In this document: positions 20,121 through 44,682 of the stretch, in pieces
How the letters are laid out: each line of letters begins with the position of its first letter
Position numbering within the stretch: position 1 is the first letter of the stretch
Assembly (NCBI GenBank): GCA_030435675.1
Contig: CM059625.1
Span: forward strand, 9,486,001-9,550,000
Direction of reading: 5' to 3'
Origin: Steinernema hermaphroditum
Taxonomy: Eukaryota > Nematoda > Chromadorea > Rhabditida > Steinernematidae
DNA length: 64,000 nt
The notes under the pieces: generated by a model
Database searches by the model: none
Seen by the model: only the letters and a program-made list of their open reading frames with translations
What the model was told of the DNA's origin: nothing
Made by a program: the position numbers and the translations under genes

Positions 20121-23089
20121 CTAGTTATGGAAGAGGCGACCGTGCGGGCGCGGATTCGGTTCTTGTTGTCCGTATGGTAACTCTTGAGGAGTCTGGTCGA
20201 CCCCTACCAGCGACGATCGGATTCGTTCGGCGTAGCTGTCAGTCAACGGCGATACCCATCTAAAACTCTTTATCTGAGACGCGATTTCCGCTGTTCCATA
20301 CTTGGCTGCTTTCTGTCCGCTCTCCAAGCACAAATCAGTGCTAATACTTTTGAAGACTTTAGGGAGCCATTTGCAAAGGGACTTCAATGTCTCTTCATAG
20401 AACTCCATGAACTTCGACGAGTTCTCGGTTGTTGTCGGCATTTGATTAGTGTCGGTAGCACTTTCGACTTTCCTGTAGGCAGCTGGCTGGATTGGTCTCT
20501 TCGTGATTGGCGACGAAGGATACACAGGGCGCATTGGGGTTGGTCGGTACTGAAATACGATCTTGGAATAAGATACAAAGGCACTGCTGCGAACCTTGAA
20601 TGTGAAGGGAGGAAGTGTTTCTGGCGTCTGTGTTGTTGTTGTTGTCGTCCTCATGGTGGTCGCTTGTTTTACCCTTTCCCACCACGGCTTTTGCGTAGAC
20701 GATGGAGCTACAGGGAACCATGTGGGCATTTTCGAAGGTTCAGTGCTTGTAGCTATATGGGTTGTATATGTCTTGAAGGAGGACACTTACGTTGAGTAGT
20801 CGTGGAAGTTGTCGTGGTGGTGGTAGGTCTTGTCCATTTCTGTGTAGTCGTCTGAGTAGTAGACGAGGAAGGCAAGCGTGAAGAAGCGGTGGAACTTCTT
20901 TGTCCAAAAGCGAGCGACGGATGAAGAAGGTTACGGGTGTTGTAGTCATTTACGTCGAGTTCATCGCGCGCAAAAAAGCGATTATGGAAGCCGAAAGGTA
21001 CACTAATCGGCACGTGGGCGCGTCCAACTTCCGTCATCGTCGTCGCATCGACAACCAAGAGAACTCCTAAAGCAAATAAAAGTGACCACTGCGCTTACTG
21101 ACCATAAAGGATTTGCGAGACTCGTTCAGCAATCCTCAGAAGGCAGCACATATGTCATTAACTCACCTTTGTTTTCCTGCAGATCGAGTGCGCGAATAAG
21201 AAGAACACCGTCGTCTTCGCGAGAGGCTTGGGGTCGTGGTACAAACCAGGGTTCATGGAGAACAAAGGCCGGTTCCGCCTCGAACTTGCTGTTTCGACTT
21301 CCTAGATGCCTGCTTATTAAAATATACAGCTTCTGGGTTTACCAGCAAGGTCGTCTACGTTAATCTTAGTAATCGAGTTGCCAGATGCAAAAGGATGGTC
21401 GACCATATACGCCCACTGGTAAGGACGTCCTTCGTAGTTGTGATTTATTTGAGGAAAATCGGAAGCCGTGGTTTCCTGCAATGAAACTGTTAACTGCTGA
21501 ATTGAAGCGCTGTCGGACCTGAGGAATGAGGTAACTGTACATGACCCGATGCTCGACAACGTCGAGGGTGAATCGGAGAACGCGTGCAGTGCTCGGATAC
21601 ACATGTTGAGTGAGAAAGTCCGTGTAGAAGTATTTCACATACGGATCATTGTTGTCGTACACAATCTAAGAAAGCTCGAGTAGACACTTCAACATCTTTT
21701 TATTTACCATATCAGCGTAGATCGTTCCATCGGGGTTTTCGAAAGCATTCAGTTGATGGGTAACGAACATTGAGGGGAACACTTCTAAGGGTTTCTGGGT
21801 ACTCCATTCTCCCGTTTTCTTGTTGAAAACAAGGAATCTATGGTTGGCACTTAATCAACAAATTGAAAAAAAGGTGATACCTCATTGGAACCATGTCGTA
21901 AAAGTCCATTCCCCACAAACCTCCTTTTTGGATGGAGCTTCTGGCGTTTGTCATCGGAGGTTCCTTGAACTTGCACGGATTGATCAGCAGTGAGGTGATA
22001 GGCAGAATAATGTAGTTCTCTGTGGAGGTGATCGAATGGATGTAGCCGGGAAGTAATGTCTTGTCTCCTGAAGGGGACGGTTAGCCTCGAGACGCTATCA
22101 ACGCTTACCGATATATTCGTCGTTTTTACCACAAGCACTTTGATCCCAGACACCATAGTCGTAGAGACCAACAACTTTGCGCACTCCCTCATCATCCAGA
22201 GTGAATATACCCTGAATAAAGTGTGTGTATTTTGATTTCGACAGGTTCATACATGGTAGAATCGTTGTTCATTGAAGTTCATAGCGCTAAATGATCCCCA
22301 GATGAGTCCATCGGCGCTTCGTCGTTCGTGAACAGACATCGAAATAGGAATCAGCGCAGGATTTGGGCTGCCGAACACATCGTTCTTTTCGATGAAAGGG
22401 AAAAGCTTGAACTTCGAAAGTGAGTCCACCTTAAAAATTCGATGAAAGATATGATCCACTGGGCATCTTACATCGAACTGGTATCCAACCCAGTATGGAG
22501 CTTCCGTCGCGGCCAAAATCTTTTTTCCAACTCGCCAGAAGTCCAAATTGGGGTGGAATCGCGCGGCGTCAGGATTTACGGGAACTTGTTCCCAGCGAGC
22601 CATTGCGCTCACATTGTAATCAGACCATCCAGCCCATGGCACTGAGGACTTGGACATGTTTCGGTCATAGAATTCCCAGATTTTGTACGGCCGTGAAGGG
22701 TAGTATTGGGAAGAGAACGTCACCTGTTGTTTTTGTGTTGTTGATTGTGTGCACTCAAATTACCTGTCCATTGCTGATCTTGAATGAACCTACAGCTCCA
22801 ATGGCGTCAATCATATGGTTCAACCGGTGGCCTGGAGCCGCAGACGCACTGCCATATGACGCGGACAGTTGGCACAGGAAGTAGCCCTCTGAAATAATGC
22901 CGAATGAGTTGAAAAGAAAGCGATGCGATTCCTACCCAAATAGCGGGGAATGTTTTTCGATGGACAGTACAGCTCGTTGTATTTGTCTCCGTCCCACGCC
23001 TCAGGGAAACCGACATGGACTCCATTGAAGGATTGTGCAGCAGTCAAGGAGTAACACAGAAAAGAAAGGCACAAAAGAAAACGTGACAT
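20121..23089 (-). CDS. Secreted carotenoid-oxygenase-family protein with Thr-rich C-terminal extension
   Basis: Member of the BCO/RPE65/NinaB family, non-haem iron enzymes cleaving or isomerising carotenoids and retinoids. It begins with a signal peptide (MSRFLLCLSFLCYSLTAAQ), unlike the usual cytosolic enzymes. Some thirteen exons join in frame. Four candidate iron-ligand His sites occur in order: SMSVHERRSADG, GYIHSITSTENYIILP, FVTHQLNAFENPDGTIYADM and VPFGFHNRFF. Other family blocks are SSQYYPSRPYKIWEFYDRN, ASDFPQINHNYEGRPYQWAY and EPWFVPRPQASREDDGVLL. After the last His the protein does not stop: two Thr-rich mucin-like runs (starting PTTTTTTSTTT and MRTTTTTTQTPE) and about 130 more residues with two Cys follow, ending GRLFHN at 20121. 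Iron-site geometry suggests an active fold; the substrate is unknown. Confidence 0.85.
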
Positions 23090-34229: not shown

Positions 34230-37153
34230 GAGCATTGCTACCAGCAAGCAGTCGCCGAACTAACCACCCAAGTCATCATCCGTCCAACCAGCCGTTGTCA
34301 GCCCGGGTCCCGGTCGCCTCAGTCGCGCGCCCTCTTGCATCTTTCGTTCGCTCTTCTCCGCACTCCGCTTGCTGCTCGTATCGTCTTCGGGCGAAGCATT
34401 CGCTCGTCACCCCGCGTTCTTCTTGCCAGCGCGCGTTCTCGCTCTGTATGTCTGCGTGCATTCGCGACTGCCGCTTGTCTGAACGCCGCCCCGAACGCGC
34501 TCTCTCTCGTCGCGCCAACAAACAACGCGAGTTTTTCAAAACCAGCGGCAACACATCACACACACGACGCCGCGGAGTATTCTTTGTTGGTTTTTCACTG
34601 CGAACAGTCGCTTTTTCCGCGCACGTCGCCGTTGTCGTTGATTCCGAGTGTTCAGCTTCACACTGGCAGCCTCAGGGCATTCCGTTAATCACTACCCCTC
34701 GCTCCTCGTTCAAGCTTATTTGCAACAGGTAAGCCTACTTTCTTTAAGTGGTTCCCTTTTGTCTGGAAGCCCCGTCTAAAAATAACTGTTTTCGTCGGCG
34801 TTCCTTTTGACTGCTTTTTTGCTATTTTCCTTTTGTTAAGGGTTATCAATTATCTAATGGTCGTTCCTTGTCCATGTTCCCTAGGCGATTCGTTTTATCG
34901 CAGTTACTATAATCGTTTTGCTGATTAGAGTCGATCGTTCGTGCGGCCGGTGAATTCGTTTTGCCGCATTGAAAATATATATGCGCGTAACTGCCTACAC
35001 TTTAAGAACGCTGTCGAGGGAGTCTCTTTAACATTTCTGTTTAACGAAAAGCAGGCGCTTCGACGGACTCTGCTCTCGACGCTGTATTGAAATGTTCCGC
35101 GGCTGTCGCAGACAATTGTTAGGCATTTGCAGTCCGATCGGGTGTTAGGGAAGTGAAGCGTCGTTAAACACATTTTGAAAACGTTCATAACGGACAGCAC
35201 GCAAGTGTGTTCCTACGTCTGTCTCGAGCAAAGGAACAGTTGCGATTTTCGGCATTTCATGCGGGAAGGGCTGTAGGAAGTGGTTTCAACGATTTGAGAC
35301 GAGCGACTAGAGAAACACGTTTGCGCCATCTGCTAGCACAAGAACGAGTGCGTCGCGCTGTTCAATTGATCGGCAAGCAGTTAGTTCGTGGTCGGTTCAA
35401 GACGACCTTGGCAGCACACTGACTTCTCCTGAACACGTCGTCGTGAACGACCGTCTCAACCGGATTTTTGCCGCGAATTTCGGTTGTGTCGAATCTCATC
35501 GGTTCTCCGTCGGCACCCGAAGAGCAATTTCGATTTCATTGTGCACCACAGTTTCCGAAATGAAGGACAAACAGGGTGTAGCGCACCTCTCTCCTTGCGG
35601 GCACTCCATCCACCTTCGACTCACAGGCCAACAAAAAACATCGATAATGCTAGGATGTTTCTTTTCTTCACTTTATCAAAAACTGCAAAATATGAAGGGG
35701 CTGAAATCACAAAAGAACACCTATTCTTTCAACCCTATTCGAAGCATCCAAATGTTCATTTTCAGATCCAACAGCAGGGTAGTGGACTCTGGCGAGGAAA
35801 AGAAGAAACTCTAGATCAGGGAACTGCAGCTCCGGCTGCGGTGACCCCAACCTTCTGTAATGGATGTCGAGAATTGAGAAAGTAAGTTTATTTTTTACAT
35901 TCCGTTGCACAGCAAAGATTAATTGGACGGTTTGGGTTTTTCTATCCCCGACATTCACTCGCTTGTTGCAACATGTGCACCTAAGCCTAGCTTTGGGAAC
36001 GGAGTTCGAGACATGGTTGACTCAATTCGAAACAAGTTTTTGCGACGGAACTATCCTCACCCAACGCCATTGAAATGCGAATCGGCTCGTTTATCGGGAT
36101 GCGTTTACGCGCTCGCGAACGAGTGCGCACATTTCAAGGTCGTGATTCTGATATGTTGCAAGAAACAGGGAACGAAAATTACTGCGAAGGGATCTGACAT
36201 TCCTGACATTCACATTCAAATCAGGGTGATCGAGTCGAGAGAAGTATATTCTTCTTTGACTCCCTGGAAAAGAGCTGTTGCCTGGGAACCGAGTCCTAAT
36301 AGCCTTCTAGAACAGCGCCATCGCTCTGATTACTGTCCAACCCTTCAAGCGTCCTTGGGTGCGGTGCTGGAGAGTGCGATAAGCAGAAACCGAAAACGCT
36401 ATGTCAGCTGAAACACAAAACAGAATTAAAAACTGCTTAGTCAGGGCCGCATTGTTGATTTCTCGATGTTCGCATTTTATCGGCACAGTGAGCGGAGAGG
36501 TACAACCCTGTATCAGCCTCTGTCTTCGCGACCGCTTTTTTCATGTCTGCGCTCTGACATTTTTCCGTACACTATTCCCGACTTTGAACACATTGTAATT
36601 AAACGAGAGACGTTACGACGATGCGGTTCAAGAGTTTAAGTGCTCCAACCAGAGGTGGCAAGGCAGGCGAACGCGTCTAATCAGTTCTGACACTGGGAGG
36701 TGTGCAGACTCGGAGAAACCATCGCGCGGCCGCGATGAGGGCATCGAACGTAGCGACACACAATGACTACGGTACAGCCTACCCACTTGCGCTTTTTGTC
36801 GATGTTTACAGACAGCGAACGTTTTTTTTCTTGTGCGTGCAAACAAAGAAGTTGGTCTCATGATGTTCAAGGCATAAAAGCGCGCGCACGTCCTCGGCAC
36901 CACAGTTGCTGAAGTCGGCGTCTCGTTCTAACCATTGCGCGCTAGCTACCCGTTCCACTTCTAATATCTGTTCAAAAAAGTGGGTGAGCGAACGGTGCTG
37001 GACGTTCGTTTCAAAAAATCGCTAATCTGCAACTTTGATAAGAAGTACAAAAAAACCGACAATCAGTTGAAAGGGTACCAGACGTCAGTACAATTGTGCT
37101 CTCGCTCGCAGCCGTTCGCTTCGGTCATTCGTTCCTCTAGTGGAATTTACAAC
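34230..37153 (+). promoter_or_regulatory. Upstream region of lin-14, with possible non-coding and alternative first exons
   Basis: A GC- and pyrimidine-rich stretch (34230-34727) ends in a good splice donor (CAACAG then GTAAGC at 34728). Its frames lack a plausible ATG-initiated protein that splices onward, so I read it tentatively as a non-coding first exon. A second candidate exon, 35766-35881, is described separately. Which promoter is used cannot be decided from sequence. Confidence 0.3.
35766..35881 (+). CDS. Candidate alternative N-terminal exon of lin-14
   Basis: Flanked by an acceptor (TTTTCAG before 35766) and a donor (GTAAGT from 35882). It reads IQQQGSGLWRGKEETLDQG and ends FCNGCRELRK. 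Its 3' end leaves two bases (AA), the same phase as the main first exon, so it can splice to the common exon at 37399 giving CRELRKDIEVV. The start of this form upstream is not found. Confidence 0.35.
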
Positions 37154-38779
37154 ATGGTTTTGTTTTTGCCGAACCGTACACATCCCCTTTGTGATCCCAC
37201 AACGCTAAGCGCATATCAAGAACCCCGTATATGTTTATACTGCCCCGATGTGTGCAATCAGCAAGCTAACATGAGTCTACAAGTTTCTCCCAAAAGTGCT
37301 TTTAAAAGAGTCGAAAGGACTTGGTAAGTTTGATCCTTCTTCAAACCTTGCTAATGGAAGATCTAATGGAAGAAAATTACTCCCTAATGTTGTTGCAGGG
37401 ATATCGAGGTTGTGAAGGAGATCCTAATACGTCATCTCCAGCATCACACAGATCCAGATGCCAATGCCCTCAGCCTTCTCATGAACCGCAACAGAGTTAA
37501 CTCGACATCAACCGCCACGGAATGCCCTTTGGCTCTTCTGCAACGTCCAGTGCCCCAATGTATGACTTGTGCGCCTCCATGTGGTCACTGTGTGTTTCCA
37601 GGCGGACTCCCAACTATCAACTTTGCTAACGCATGGGGAATCAGTGCCACAGCTGCGCCAGGCAGCCCAACCCTACCACAAGGGATTTTCCTCGACGCGC
37701 AGCAGACTCAAGAGAACAACTGGAGTTCACCGAGTAGCGTCGGATCTACAAACAAAACGGACAGCTCCAATGGGGAGTCCTCCGCACACATAGATCCTGT
37801 GGGACTGGATACAAATGAAGCACCGTCTACGTCCGGTCAAAGTGCACAAGTAAGAGGCGGGTTATCTTGCAGGCGATAAATCGGTCGCTTTCAGCAACTT
37901 CCTCTTTCTGCGACCGCCGAACTTTACAAAGAGCTTGCTAAGCAGTCTCTTTTCGGAGCGCCGAACAGCAATTTCAATGCAGCGCTCTTGCGAGCGGGTG
38001 TGCAATTTCCGGCGGCAGCTCTCGGTTCATTACATTCGGCAGAACGCGCAGCGACAACCGATGTGCAGACAGCGGGCGCTATCGAGAAAAAGGTGCGATA
38101 CATCTGTCGCAGTGAGGCATAGCAGTTGCAAACAGTTTCAGAAACCGATATCCGATGACTACGTTAAGATCATCCGACAACAGAACTTCACCCCGGAAAG
38201 AGCGAAGAACATCGAAGTGCCTGTGAGAGAAGCATTCATTTGTGACCCTCGTAAGTGCCGAGGACGCACTTTCCGCATCATGGGTTCATTTACAGATTTT
38301 CTTCCGGCTGGTGAGAAGCAAATCATCGATCAGGTCTTGCATGGCAAGAACGGAAATGGGAGATTCGACGTGCGTGAAGCCATGACGGTGATGTGCAAGA
38401 AACTGGCGGAAAAAAGGGTTTTCGGTCCAAAACTCATGGCGAAAACTACCGTAGCCGGCCCCAATCATTCCACTTACAACAACCTGCCGGATAGCGGAAT
38501 TCACTACATTCAAAGTGAGCTAATTAACGCAATCCGGTTTCACAGAGTTGCTCAGGTGTTTGTTGGGAAGTGTTCGGACCTGGGAAGTATGTGAAAGACG
38601 ACGAAGAATTCTGGGACCTGTTCAAGGACGCGATGCGCAAGCTGGCTGCTCGCTGCCGTCGTGTGAGGCATGCGAAGAAGAAATGTCATCAGTCCGACAG
38701 CTCCTTGTTGCTTCCTAGACACAACATCCGAACCTTAGCTTCCCAATCTGAGCCGAACATTGAAACGGCTAACTCGTGA
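37154..38779 (+). CDS. lin-14: LIN-14-like heterochronic transcription factor
   Basis: LIN-14 is a nuclear DNA-binding protein that specifies early larval fates in nematodes and is repressed by lin-4 microRNA. Exons 37154-37323, 37399-37849, 37895-38092, 38142-38555 and 38588-38779 join in frame to 474 residues (the C. elegans protein is about 540). The first two thirds are low in complexity and rich in Ser/Thr/Pro/Asn. The C-terminal third is a compact conserved domain: VPVREAFICDPRKCRGRTFR, IMGSFTDFLPAGEKQIIDQV, MCKKLAEKRVFGPKLMAKTT, YNNLPDSGIHYIQSELINAI, then EEFWDLFKDAMRKLAARCRR with a basic RHAKKK run (nuclear localisation). Its layout suits a BEN-type domain, reported for LIN-14. Identity rests on this domain plus clustered lin-4 seed matches at 39086-39237. 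The final 32-bp intron (38556-38587) is inferred from the frame. Confidence 0.72.
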
Positions 38780-39085
38780 TCTCGCTTCACAGATCGGAAT
38801 TTTCAGAACAAATTTTCGATTTCCACTCCTTTGCCTCCACTTGTCGGCTTTTGTCTACGTACTCCCGTGCTCAGAACATTATCCGGTGATTCCGGTGTTA
38901 TCCATCTTGACGTTTCTCAATTTTTGTCACACCTCTCCGGTGAACCTCCAATCGTTCGGTGATGTTCCTTACAAGAAACGTGCTGCTTTTACTCAGATTT
39001 TTATTTTAAAGTCGTTTTCGTAGTTTAGTTACACATAGTTATGTCAGTTATCATTACAGAAATTGTATATTGCCTGCCCATATTT

Positions 39086-39237
39086 CTCAGGTCATTATGT
39101 CTGCCTCATCAATTGTAAACTCAGGGAATCTTTATAAACCTCGATTCTATGCATCCACCTCAGGTTATTACTTTCATCTCAGGAATCTTTTTCAACTCAG
39201 GGATACTACATGGTATTGTTATCGCATTTCTCAGGGA
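39086..39237 (+). promoter_or_regulatory. Cluster of lin-4/miR-125 seed-match sites downstream of lin-14 (putative 3' UTR)
   Basis: Three perfect 8-mer matches to the lin-4 seed (CTCAGGGA) lie at 39120-39127, 39196-39203 and 39230-39237, and three further CTCAGG 6-mers at 39086, 39159 and 39178. All six fall within 152 bp, 307-458 bp after the lin-14 stop. A let-7-like wobble match (CTGCCTCA) sits just upstream of the first 8-mer. The UTR end is not clear; it may reach about 39390. Confidence 0.75.
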
Positions 39238-40545
39238 TATTCACGCAACCGAATGCAACGCACAGGGCCTTTTTGAGATTGTCTCTGTCTTTGTTTGTTC
39301 AGTTGTTCTGTGAGCTACGTTACTCAGCAATGTTTTATTTGTAATGTTCCATTGCTTATAATGCAATACTGTTGGCATAAAAACGCTTTTCAATGCCCTT
39401 CCTCACATCTACCCTCGCGACATGCAATGTAGATGATGTCCACTGTTGGGGACTGTCGTCGTGCTCACTTCGTGAAACTTACGGTCACAAAGCAATAGAA
39501 AGCACTCAAAAACGAGGAAAGCGGAATACAGTGCATACAGAACATATGCTTTATTTTTGCTCAAAATCAACGATGGCAAACAGGAACAACACTTACCACT
39601 TTTCGCATCTCCAAGCAAACCGTTGAACACAGGCCTTCGACACAGAACGCAACTCGAACGGCGAATGAGACAAATGAACGCGGAAAGGAACGCAACGGCA
39701 GCTTAGTACCAGTTCTGTTCTCGGAACACCACAAGATACAAACATTAAATAACCTTTCCGCTCTGGGCGGTGGTTCGCTCTTATCGGCGCACCACTCAAG
39801 CAGCTAGAAGGTGGCACCACCCTTCCAACCGAAGCTATGGTGTACATAAAGTTGTGCTCGCTTTGTCACGTTCGGCATCATGCGTAAACAGAGGACTCTA
39901 ACCCTCAGGAACATAAATGAACTTACAACACCACTCTCAAATGCATAGCAAAACCATAATCGCACGTTTCCCTAAGTGTTTTCAATGAATTGCGCTTCTA
40001 ATTCTCTGTAGCACTTAGCTGTCTGGAAAACGTGAGACAGTTATTTCAGACGGAGTCTGGTATCGTATGACTTGTCTACTACATATATGGTACAAATATG
40101 CGGCAGTTCTGCGGTGCAATGCCAGTTGCTTTTGCAGTAAGCGCATACGAAATCACATATTAGACAGTGTATTCATTATCTTGGGCAACTTCTAATAATC
40201 GACACAGTTTTTTCGTAGGTTTTAGTTTCGCTTCGATCGCTCTTCGCGATGCTTTTTAATTGTCCGTTAAAAATTTTATGCTGCATAATTTAAACACATA
40301 TCTTTCAGGTCAATGCAATCACCGCATCAGAAATTCTCTTGCCATAGTTCCGAGAGTAGGTCAGTGCAGATATGAAAGGAATGATATTCCAACGGCTGCG
40401 CCAATTACTCGCGGACGAAGTTTTATTCATTGCGCGTTTATAACCACCGATTCGTCTACGGTTTATTTAGTCAACTCCTCTTCGGTGCCTGTATAGTCAA
40501 TTAGGTTTTAGGTGTACCAACGTTCTGAACAAGCTGCCCTTGACA
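39238..40545. other. Intergenic region between lin-14 3' UTR and LIM gene
   Basis: No exon with family similarity; small open frames on both strands only. Presumably lin-14 3' flank and the promoter of the LIM protein gene. Confidence 0.4.
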
Positions 40546-41346
40546 ATGAAGAATTGCGGTCTTTGTGGACAAAACGTGTTCCTAGCCGAATGTGTTCAAG
40601 GGTTTGGTAGGGTTTGGCATCAACACTGTTTTGTTTGTTGTAAGTTCTTGTCGTCGCGATCACTTATTCTCGGTGAAAATGCTTTGTAGCCGTTGGAAGT
40701 TGTGGTAAACTTCTCGACAGCTTGACAGCATGCGAGCATAAACAAGCGGTAATGTTGTCTCTGCTTTGCACGAAAAAATGCTCTTCAGCTTTATTGTCAT
40801 CAGTGCTACAATCGGACAGTCGGCACCCTCCGTTCCTATCATGGACTTCGCCCTACGGTCACACACATTTCGTCAGCGGACGAAGCTGCCCACTCGTACA
40901 AAATATACGACCAGAAAAACGCAGCTTGCTACCAAAATTCCAAACAGGATCGCACAAACGAAAGCATAAGCAGAACCAGCGTTGAACAGAAAGCATCGAA
41001 ATTCGAAACTACTTTCACGAACGAAGCAAAGAAGTGTCCAAAGTGCGAGAAAACCGTTTATGATGCGGAAAAAGTTTCAGCTGCCGGAAATGTACGTTTA
41101 GTCAACTTCGTGACGTGGAAAATTAACTGAGTCCTCAGGTCTGGCATAAGAACACATGCTTCACTTGCACGGTATGTTCGAAACGACTGGAGTCACGTAG
41201 CTTATGCGAGAGAAAGGGACAGCTCTTCTGTAACGGTACTTGTTCTATTGTGTGTACTTAAATGGTTTCATGTTTTAGTGTGTTACGGTAAGCAGTTCGG
41301 CCCAAGAATATATGGACACGGTTCAGCTTTCATTAACGTTCTGTGA
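40546..41346 (+). CDS. Two-LIM-domain protein of the CRP/muscle LIM protein type
   Basis: LIM-only proteins of the CRP/MLP class act at Z-discs/dense bodies and in nuclei as scaffolds. Exons join from ATG 40546 (MKNCGLCGQNVFLAECV). LIM1: C-x2-C, then WHQHCFVC, then GSCGKLLDSLTACEH. A spacer rich in Ser/Lys follows. LIM2 is textbook: CPKCEKTVYDAEKVSAAGN, VWHKNTCFTCTVCSKRLESR, CERKGQLFCNVCYGKQFGP, ending RIYGHGSAFINVL with the glycine-type block found after CRP LIM domains. In my splice model LIM1 has four instead of two residues between its central cysteines and lacks a full last finger, so it is either degenerate or slightly mis-spliced by me. Stop at 41344-41346; an AATAAA follows near 41405. 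Confidence 0.85.
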
Positions 41347-43155: not shown

Positions 43156-44682
43156 ATGCCAGACGGAAAGGCTCCCCACTTCCCCCAGCAGCCTGTTGCT
43201 CGCCAGAATGACGACGGATCGTTGGAGCTTGAGTGCTTTCTGGAAGCCAGCCCGACTCCCGACATCAAATGGTTCTACGAGCAGGTAAAGCCTGTGCCAA
43301 CAACAATACGTCTTATACTCTGCTTCAGAACGAAATCAAGGTTACGCCTGGAGGCACTTTTGAACGTTTCACTTTCAACTTGAACAACAAGGGAGGCGAT
43401 GCCTATTCCGCTATCCTTAAGATTAAGGTAAACTTTCGCTTTTAACGATAAGCCGAGAGCGGACGTTGTGCAGCATGCGGCATTTTGTTCACTTTTACTC
43501 GGGCTTACACCCGCACCTGCCTACACTAAATAATGCCGCCGGACCAGTCATTCGAGCCAGTGTAAAGTGAAGCGCATCCTTGCTGGACACCCACTTGTCC
43601 CAGCGATAGCTTTCGCATCTGGATGACTGCATGTAAACAGTTGCAGTACACAGTCGCGTAGACGAAAATTGATTTGATATTGATGTGTCCCGAAGTCTTA
43701 CAATAGCATCACTCATTTTAAGGACCTCGCTGATAGTGATGCCGGAGCCTACCGCTGCGCAATCGTTAACCCGTACGGAAAGGGCAACGCCAACTTCAAT
43801 CTGAAGCTGACCGGATTCAGCTCTCCCACCTTCGTGGAGAAGCCCCAGATCTCGTCCCGCGAAGATGGCCGCGTCATGATCATGGAGTTCAAGGCCAAGT
43901 CCATCCTGAAGCCCACCTTTGTCTGGACGCGCGGAGAGGAGATCGTCGCCGAATCCGATCGCCTCAAGATCGTACAGAAGGAAATGGGAAATCAGGAATA
44001 CTACGCTGCTATCGAAATTACCGATCCTAAGAAGGAAAAGGACGCTGGACAGTTTGTCTGCACAGCCAAAAACGAGTCCGGAAAGCTTACGGCCACCTTC
44101 TCGGTGAAATTCGAAGGTTGATACTTTTTGCAAATGGGGGTTTAAACGAGCGCATTTCAGTTCCTCAAGGAGCTCCCACCTTCACTCGCAAACCGCAGAT
44201 CCTGCAGAAGACTTCCGACTCTGGAGACCCGGCCATTGTGTTCGATATCGGATTCCAAGCTGACATGAACCCCGAAGTCGCCTGGATCAACCCTAAGGGC
44301 AAGAAGATGAAGGAATCGAGCAGAATCAAGTTCGTGCAGCAAAGCGACGGAACGGCTAACACGTACACTGCTCAGCTCGAACTCAAGGTTTACCAAATTG
44401 CTTAACGATTCCGTCTAACGCTGCTTTCTTTAGAACTACAAGGCCAAGGACAGCGGCACCTACGTCTGCAACATCAAGAATGATGCTGGCGAAGCCAATG
44501 TTGAGCTTACGCTGAACATCGAAGGTGAGTACATTGGCCACATATAATTTGCATTTTGGGTATTGTTTCCCTTTCACCACTCCTTGTCTTCGAGTTTTGG
44601 GCTTGACTTTTTTGACCTGTCTCACATGCTTACATTTTCAGGTCCCATGGACGACGCAGGTGACGATGCCAGCGAGGCTTAA
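43156..44682 (+). CDS. dim-1: DIM-1-like muscle Ig-domain protein
   Basis: Three immunoglobulin I-set domains without signal peptide, as in C. elegans DIM-1 (disorganised muscle protein 1), which stabilises muscle attachment near the membrane and dense bodies. ATG 43156 gives [20 protein letters not shown], and Ig1 carries [20 protein letters not shown] and [20 protein letters not shown]. Ig2 runs from [19 protein letters not shown] to [20 protein letters not shown]. Ig3 runs from [20 protein letters not shown] to [21 protein letters not shown] short acidic tail ([12 protein letters not shown]) ends at 44682. Codon use is strongly C/G-ending, suggesting high expression in muscle. The intron at about 43427-43719 is unusually long (nearly 300 bp) for this window; the others are under 130 bp. 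Confidence 0.85.

Follow-up and report, generated by a model that had tools for sequence, protein, structure and literature searches.

A compact cluster of six lin-4 sites lies just past the stop codon of the lin-14 ortholog of the insect-killing nematode Steinernema hermaphroditum and, placed as it likely is within the lin-14 3′ UTR, would very probably let a predicted lin-4 microRNA silence LIN-14 as in Caenorhabditis elegans. The lin-14 ortholog beside the sites, together with a predicted lin-4 hairpin that the ARMC9 ortholog harbours in one of its introns, makes a conserved lin-4::lin-14 switch the best reading. The sequence evidence suggests that Steinernema, a member of Tylenchina and distant from Caenorhabditis, has retained the founding microRNA–target pair. 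The window—the whole stretch of DNA that was analysed—comprises 64,000 bases (C5:9486001–9550000) of an assembly of 90,648,085 bases; positions without a contig prefix are those of the window.

An earlier note on this DNA had described three perfect CTCAGGGA 8-mers plus three CTCAGG 6-mers at 39086–39237, a few hundred bases after the stop of a LIN-14-like gene. A word search agrees on all six and places them on the plus strand; their starts measure 307 to 451 bases past the stop codon that ends at 38779:

39086..39091, plus strand: lin-4 offset 6-mer site CTCAGG, starting 307 bases past the stop
39120..39127, plus strand: lin-4 8-mer site CTCAGGGA, starting 341 bases past the stop
39159..39164, plus strand: lin-4 offset 6-mer site CTCAGG, starting 380 bases past the stop
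39178..39183, plus strand: lin-4 offset 6-mer site CTCAGG, followed by AA, starting 399 bases past the stop
39196..39203, plus strand: lin-4 8-mer site CTCAGGGA, starting 417 bases past the stop
39230..39237, plus strand: lin-4 8-mer site CTCAGGGA, starting 451 bases past the stop

On the minus strand, CTCAGG does not occur within 38780–40500. Against the predicted mature lin-4, CTCAGGGA forms a perfect 8-mer site, with nucleotides 2–8 paired and an A opposite nucleotide 1. CTCAGG alone corresponds to pairing with nucleotides 3–8, the match to nucleotide 2 being missing at three of the six copies.

The overall word counts in the window are not striking—four CTCAGGGA (the fourth at 23000) versus 1.48 expected, with 3 of 100 shuffles reaching four, and 20 CTCAGG versus 23.6 expected. 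It is the clustering that is unusual. In 152 bases, 0.028 CTCAGG are expected, and the Poisson probability of at least six is 6e-13; that of at least three CTCAGGGA is 7e-10. These values are after-the-fact; a crude correction, in which the CTCAGG value is multiplied by the number of positions (64,000) and of words (4,096), still leaves about 2e-4, and the claim that the cluster is far from chance holds. Within the 641 bases past the stop, CTCAGG has the lowest probability (4e-9) among the 71 six-mers occurring at least twice, as does CTCAGGGA (3e-8) among the 14 repeated 8-mers after the lin-14 stop. When the window was scanned in 20-base steps, CTCAGG was the sole 6-mer with at least three kinds of letters to reach at least five non-overlapping copies per 152 bases.

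Genome-wide, pairs of CTCAGGGA 12–42 bases apart give eight rows and the reversed pattern gives one. Triples of CTCAGG with gaps of 5–35 give at least 89 rows (53 + 36), and their reversed-pattern control at least 1,153 matches (584 + 569). This control is uninformative for the cluster, and hence the spacers were compared instead, across 19 rows from elsewhere in the genome plus the four of lin-14. The 19 other rows are mostly tandem repeats: in 13 of them the spacers are alike (z ≥ 2.3), and a further two are adjacent copies. Four rows carry unlike spacers, two of them inside one evident repeat on C1. At C3:3568018 and C4:6502447, three CTCAGG each stand with unlike spacers and no evident repeat; lin-14 holds six.

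Could the cluster be a product of chance or a decayed repeat without function? These two other places might be read in that way, and a second word, TCCGGTG, is likewise present in three copies within these 641 bases (38780–39420), upstream of the lin-4 array. The Poisson probability, also after its correction, speaks against such an origin; in addition, no tandem repeat was found at the array, its spacers are unlike one another, and lin-14 is the one gene expected to carry lin-4 sites. We regard an origin of this kind as exceedingly improbable.

When the spliced gene adjoining the array was used as a protein query, QR680_001862 of S. hermaphroditum was retrieved; protein homologs, alignment, and a ranking of BEN structures support the identification of what had been called a LIN-14-like gene as the lin-14 ortholog. 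Its coding exons and possible coding exons are as follows:

34657..34728, plus strand: upstream lin-14 coding exon, residues 8–31 of the deposited protein P0001 (tblastn, 96%)
35763..35882, plus strand: upstream lin-14 coding exon, residues 31–70 of P0001 (tblastn); its end is approximate, as the matches finish in a stop just after
37154..37323, plus strand: possible alternative first lin-14 coding exon, with a GT donor at 37324 and a frame that fits the next exon
37399..37849, plus strand: lin-14 coding exon (gene model and tblastn)
37895..38092, plus strand: lin-14 coding exon (gene model and tblastn)
38142..38250, plus strand: lin-14 coding exon that opens the BEN region and that begins two codons earlier in the deposited protein
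38296..38514, plus strand: lin-14 coding exon, BEN region (tblastn and alignment)
38556..38779, plus strand: final lin-14 coding exon, encoding the arginine-rich last helix and carrying the stop (tblastn, 100% to P0001)

The exon at 37399..37849 is probably split by a 42-base intron, since 14 of its residues are missing from the deposited protein. The 5′ end of the gene may be either 37154–37323 or 34657–35882, which suggests alternative first exons; the former resembles the start of the Steinernema glaseri homolog P0002 and is unused in P0001.

The search returned 51 LIN-14 homologs; all 44 that bear an organism name come from nematodes, and several are named lin-14, with identities to the named proteins of 40–62% over the aligned part. 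A larger set of 139 homologs from more than 100 nematode genomes has been reported earlier (PMC10080584). An alignment of 29 proteins contains 43 invariant columns, including the segment KLAARCRRVRH, and the invariant RCRRVR within it falls into helix 399–433 of the structural model; in C. elegans LIN-14, arginines of the last helix contact DNA (PMC10080584). A two-residue insertion (VFGPGKYV) is common to the three Steinernema LIN-14 proteins and absent from the other 26. The S. hermaphroditum gene is predicted to encode a LIN-14 with a BEN domain: when VIA-align was applied to its candidates, six BEN-domain structures took the first ranks. The structural model underlying this comparison covers the whole protein (457 residues) at a mean pLDDT of 58.7. 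Foldseek with this whole model gave 177 matches at E ≤ 10 and zero at 0.001, the BEN domain being absent from the best 50 of the 177. Pfam and PDB sequence searches of the protein yielded no match, and Pfam across the 29 aligned proteins nothing consistent. The likeness to the BEN-domain LIN-14 proteins described in PMC10080584 comprises the conserved C-terminal region, the arginine-rich last helix, and, tentatively, the predicted BEN fold.

The likely location of the sites is given by one further feature:

38780..39420, plus strand: likely lin-14 3′ UTR, placed by its position after the stop

From the lin-14 stop until 41404, AATAAA does not occur. Variant signals are found at 39376 (CATAAA) and 39744 (ATTAAA), and a transcript end at either would include all six sites, while one at the TATAAA at 39133 could exclude four of the six.

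The microRNA itself can be predicted as well. A lin-4 hairpin in the genome had been named as a check, and one is predicted at C5:4617369–4617448, on the same contig as lin-14. The genome pattern used for the lin-4 21-mer, TCCCTGAGACN(9)GA, occurs at chance level genome-wide (six matches versus seven for the reversed pattern), so that it is the hairpin and its host intron that carry the lin-4 assignment. One of the six pattern loci, that at C5:4617369–4617448, matches lin-4 in Rfam (RF00052) over the full length 1–80 with 34.1 bits and E 0.002, below the curators' gathering cut-off of 40. Its fold has −33.3 kcal/mol and a z of −6.06, with none of 200 shuffles as stable. The predicted mature lin-4 has the 5′ sequence UCCCUGAGA with the lin-4 seed, and the small RNA would read UCCCUGAGACCUCAUUUGUGA. 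Compared with C. elegans lin-4, the seed and the first 14 mature bases match and 19 of 21 bases are identical, the other two differing. RF00052 matches one other place in the genome, at 20.1 bits and E 8, which was rejected as a second lin-4 hairpin as its sequence lacks the lin-4 seed; at E ≤ 10, the same family also matches 7 of 14 control genomes, all below the cut-off.

The gene hosting the hairpin, on the same strand, is the ARMC9 ortholog P0052 (933 aa, QR680_000867), and the hairpin occupies one of its introns. The stretch encoding ARMC9 residues 580–636 finishes about 2.4 kb before the mature lin-4, residue 637 begins about 100 bases downstream of it, and Pfam finds ARMC9_ARM in two frames upstream of the hairpin. 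F59G1.4 of C. elegans is presumably the ARMC9 ortholog. Intron 9 of F59G1.4a houses the C. elegans lin-4, with an exon following about 200 bp downstream (PMC5764303), and the common position in an ARMC9 intron supports orthology of lin-4 in both worms. In seed, hairpin, and same-strand host-gene intron, the S. hermaphroditum locus thus resembles the known lin-4 family, from which it departs in score and in the two mature bases. As for the host gene, the S. carpocapsae ARMC9 ortholog is annotated as two proteins, L596_002140 and L596_002142 (P0053 and P0063), and a second promoter of the host may lie close to lin-4, as has been described for C. elegans F59G1.4b (PMC5764303). One of the loci fetched from the genome, L003, holds a U4 spliceosomal RNA gene at L003:2776–2914 (115 bits).

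Two further properties of the sites, 3′ supplementary pairing and accessibility, were considered as extra proof and rejected, as neither backs the lin-4 sites. The duplexes of the three 8-mers are no stronger than those obtained when the seed is placed into random local flanks (fractions 0.41, 0.86, and 0.49), although pairing beyond the seed need not be present at every site, and the sites are predicted not to be open, with unpaired values of 0.013–0.048 versus a median of 0.078. The pairing result, together with the three of six copies that lack the match to lin-4 nucleotide 2, would also suit a reader of CTCAGG other than lin-4—an RNA-binding protein or a second microRNA sharing the seed. 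Such a reader appears very unlikely: the exact 8-mer with its A opposite nucleotide 1 is present three times, RF00052 reveals one convincing hairpin only, and lin-14 is a lin-4 target in C. elegans (PMC3772890).

Taking lin-4 as the reader, the switch would operate as follows. Early larvae would make LIN-14, presumably a DNA-binding protein with a BEN domain, which would maintain the programme of the early larva. The lin-4 microRNA, released from the intron of the ARMC9 ortholog, would then rise, and Argonaute loaded with it would bind the array—mainly at the three 8-mers, with the offset 6-mers helping. Translation of lin-14 would drop as a consequence, and the next larval programme could begin.

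In its composition, the proposed switch resembles that of C. elegans, with the same target gene, the same microRNA family, and several sites past the stop. C. elegans lin-14 is described as bearing three canonical and four near-target lin-4 sites, the canonical ones being unchanged across five worm species (PMC5903666), and the three canonical and three offset sites of S. hermaphroditum agree with this make-up. The two systems differ in compactness—the S. hermaphroditum sites are packed into 152 bases, whereas the seven of C. elegans lie in a 1.6 kb 3′ UTR (PMC3772890)—and with respect to let-7, which also targets lin-14 in C. elegans (PMC5903666), whereas no let-7 seed match is found within 38780–40500 of the window. 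The compactness of the array might indicate that functional lin-4 sites were gained convergently in the Steinernema lineage and not inherited together with those of C. elegans. We consider this unlikely, given that the gene pair, the number of canonical sites (three), and the presence of near-target sites are as in C. elegans, and that the canonical sites are reported as unchanged in five worm species (PMC5903666).

Inheritance of the sites from a common ancestor bears on the age of the pair. The earlier note had proposed that the same regulation operates in a possibly early-branching nematode and that the pair would thereby be pushed deeper into nematode evolution. The regulatory part gains support from the lin-14 ortholog and from the predicted hairpin in the ARMC9 intron, but the early branching is ruled out by the species match and its taxonomy (Chromadorea, Rhabditida, Tylenchina, Panagrolaimomorpha). 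What is left of the greater age is a modest extension: if the sites are homologous, the pair would go back to the ancestor that Tylenchina and Rhabditina share. The age of the switch thereby becomes testable, through comparison of the lin-14 3′ UTRs of Tylenchina, Spirurina, and Rhabditina. Our literature search, which drew on partial texts, met no report of a Steinernema lin-14 with lin-4 sites; microRNA targets of S. carpocapsae are predicted in the supplementary files of PMC6868747, and lin-14 may therefore be among them.

A second lin-4 target was sought in lin-28 and rejected, as a LIN-28-like frame (a weak match, E 1e-7, 35% identity) carries no CTCAGG in the 2,500 bases past its stop; a let-7 seed match is likewise absent from these 2,500 bases. 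The gene model of this frame is provisional, and hence the missing lin-4 sites are no proof of absence.

The lin-4 hairpin (C5:4617369–4617448) and the lin-14 array (window 39086–39237) are both situated on C5. This common chromosome raises a question of dosage that is absent in C. elegans, where lin-4 lies on chromosome II and lin-14 on X. In S. carpocapsae, the LIN-14 (L596_003585) and ARMC9 (L596_002140) orthologs are both encoded on a contig of 20,922,283 bases. Serra et al. (PMC6686942) identify the 20.9 Mb scaffold of this species as chromosome X, with homology to portions of the C. elegans chromosomes II, IV, and X. The LIN-14 and ARMC9 orthologs, the only two markers used, suggest that C5 corresponds to the X chromosome in S. 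hermaphroditum. The Steinernema X is reported to have fused twice, with Nigon B and with Nigon D, and S. carpocapsae to compensate dosage incompletely (PMC12629237). The fusions have probably joined lin-4 and lin-14 on the X. One may speculate further that, with the II-like lin-4 and the X-like lin-14 joined on an incompletely compensated X, their doses co-vary between XX and XO animals, that this balances the switch in both sexes, and that the linkage was kept by selection—an idea we hold to be rather doubtful. The literature matches listed contain nothing on point for X-linkage of lin-4 and lin-14 and its dosage.

Downstream of lin-14, the window holds two further plus-strand frames: a LIM-domain-like frame at 40471–40689, which scores 22 bits versus a Pfam cut-off of 22.9, and a frame with an immunoglobulin I-set domain at 43684–44121 (Pfam E 2e-14).
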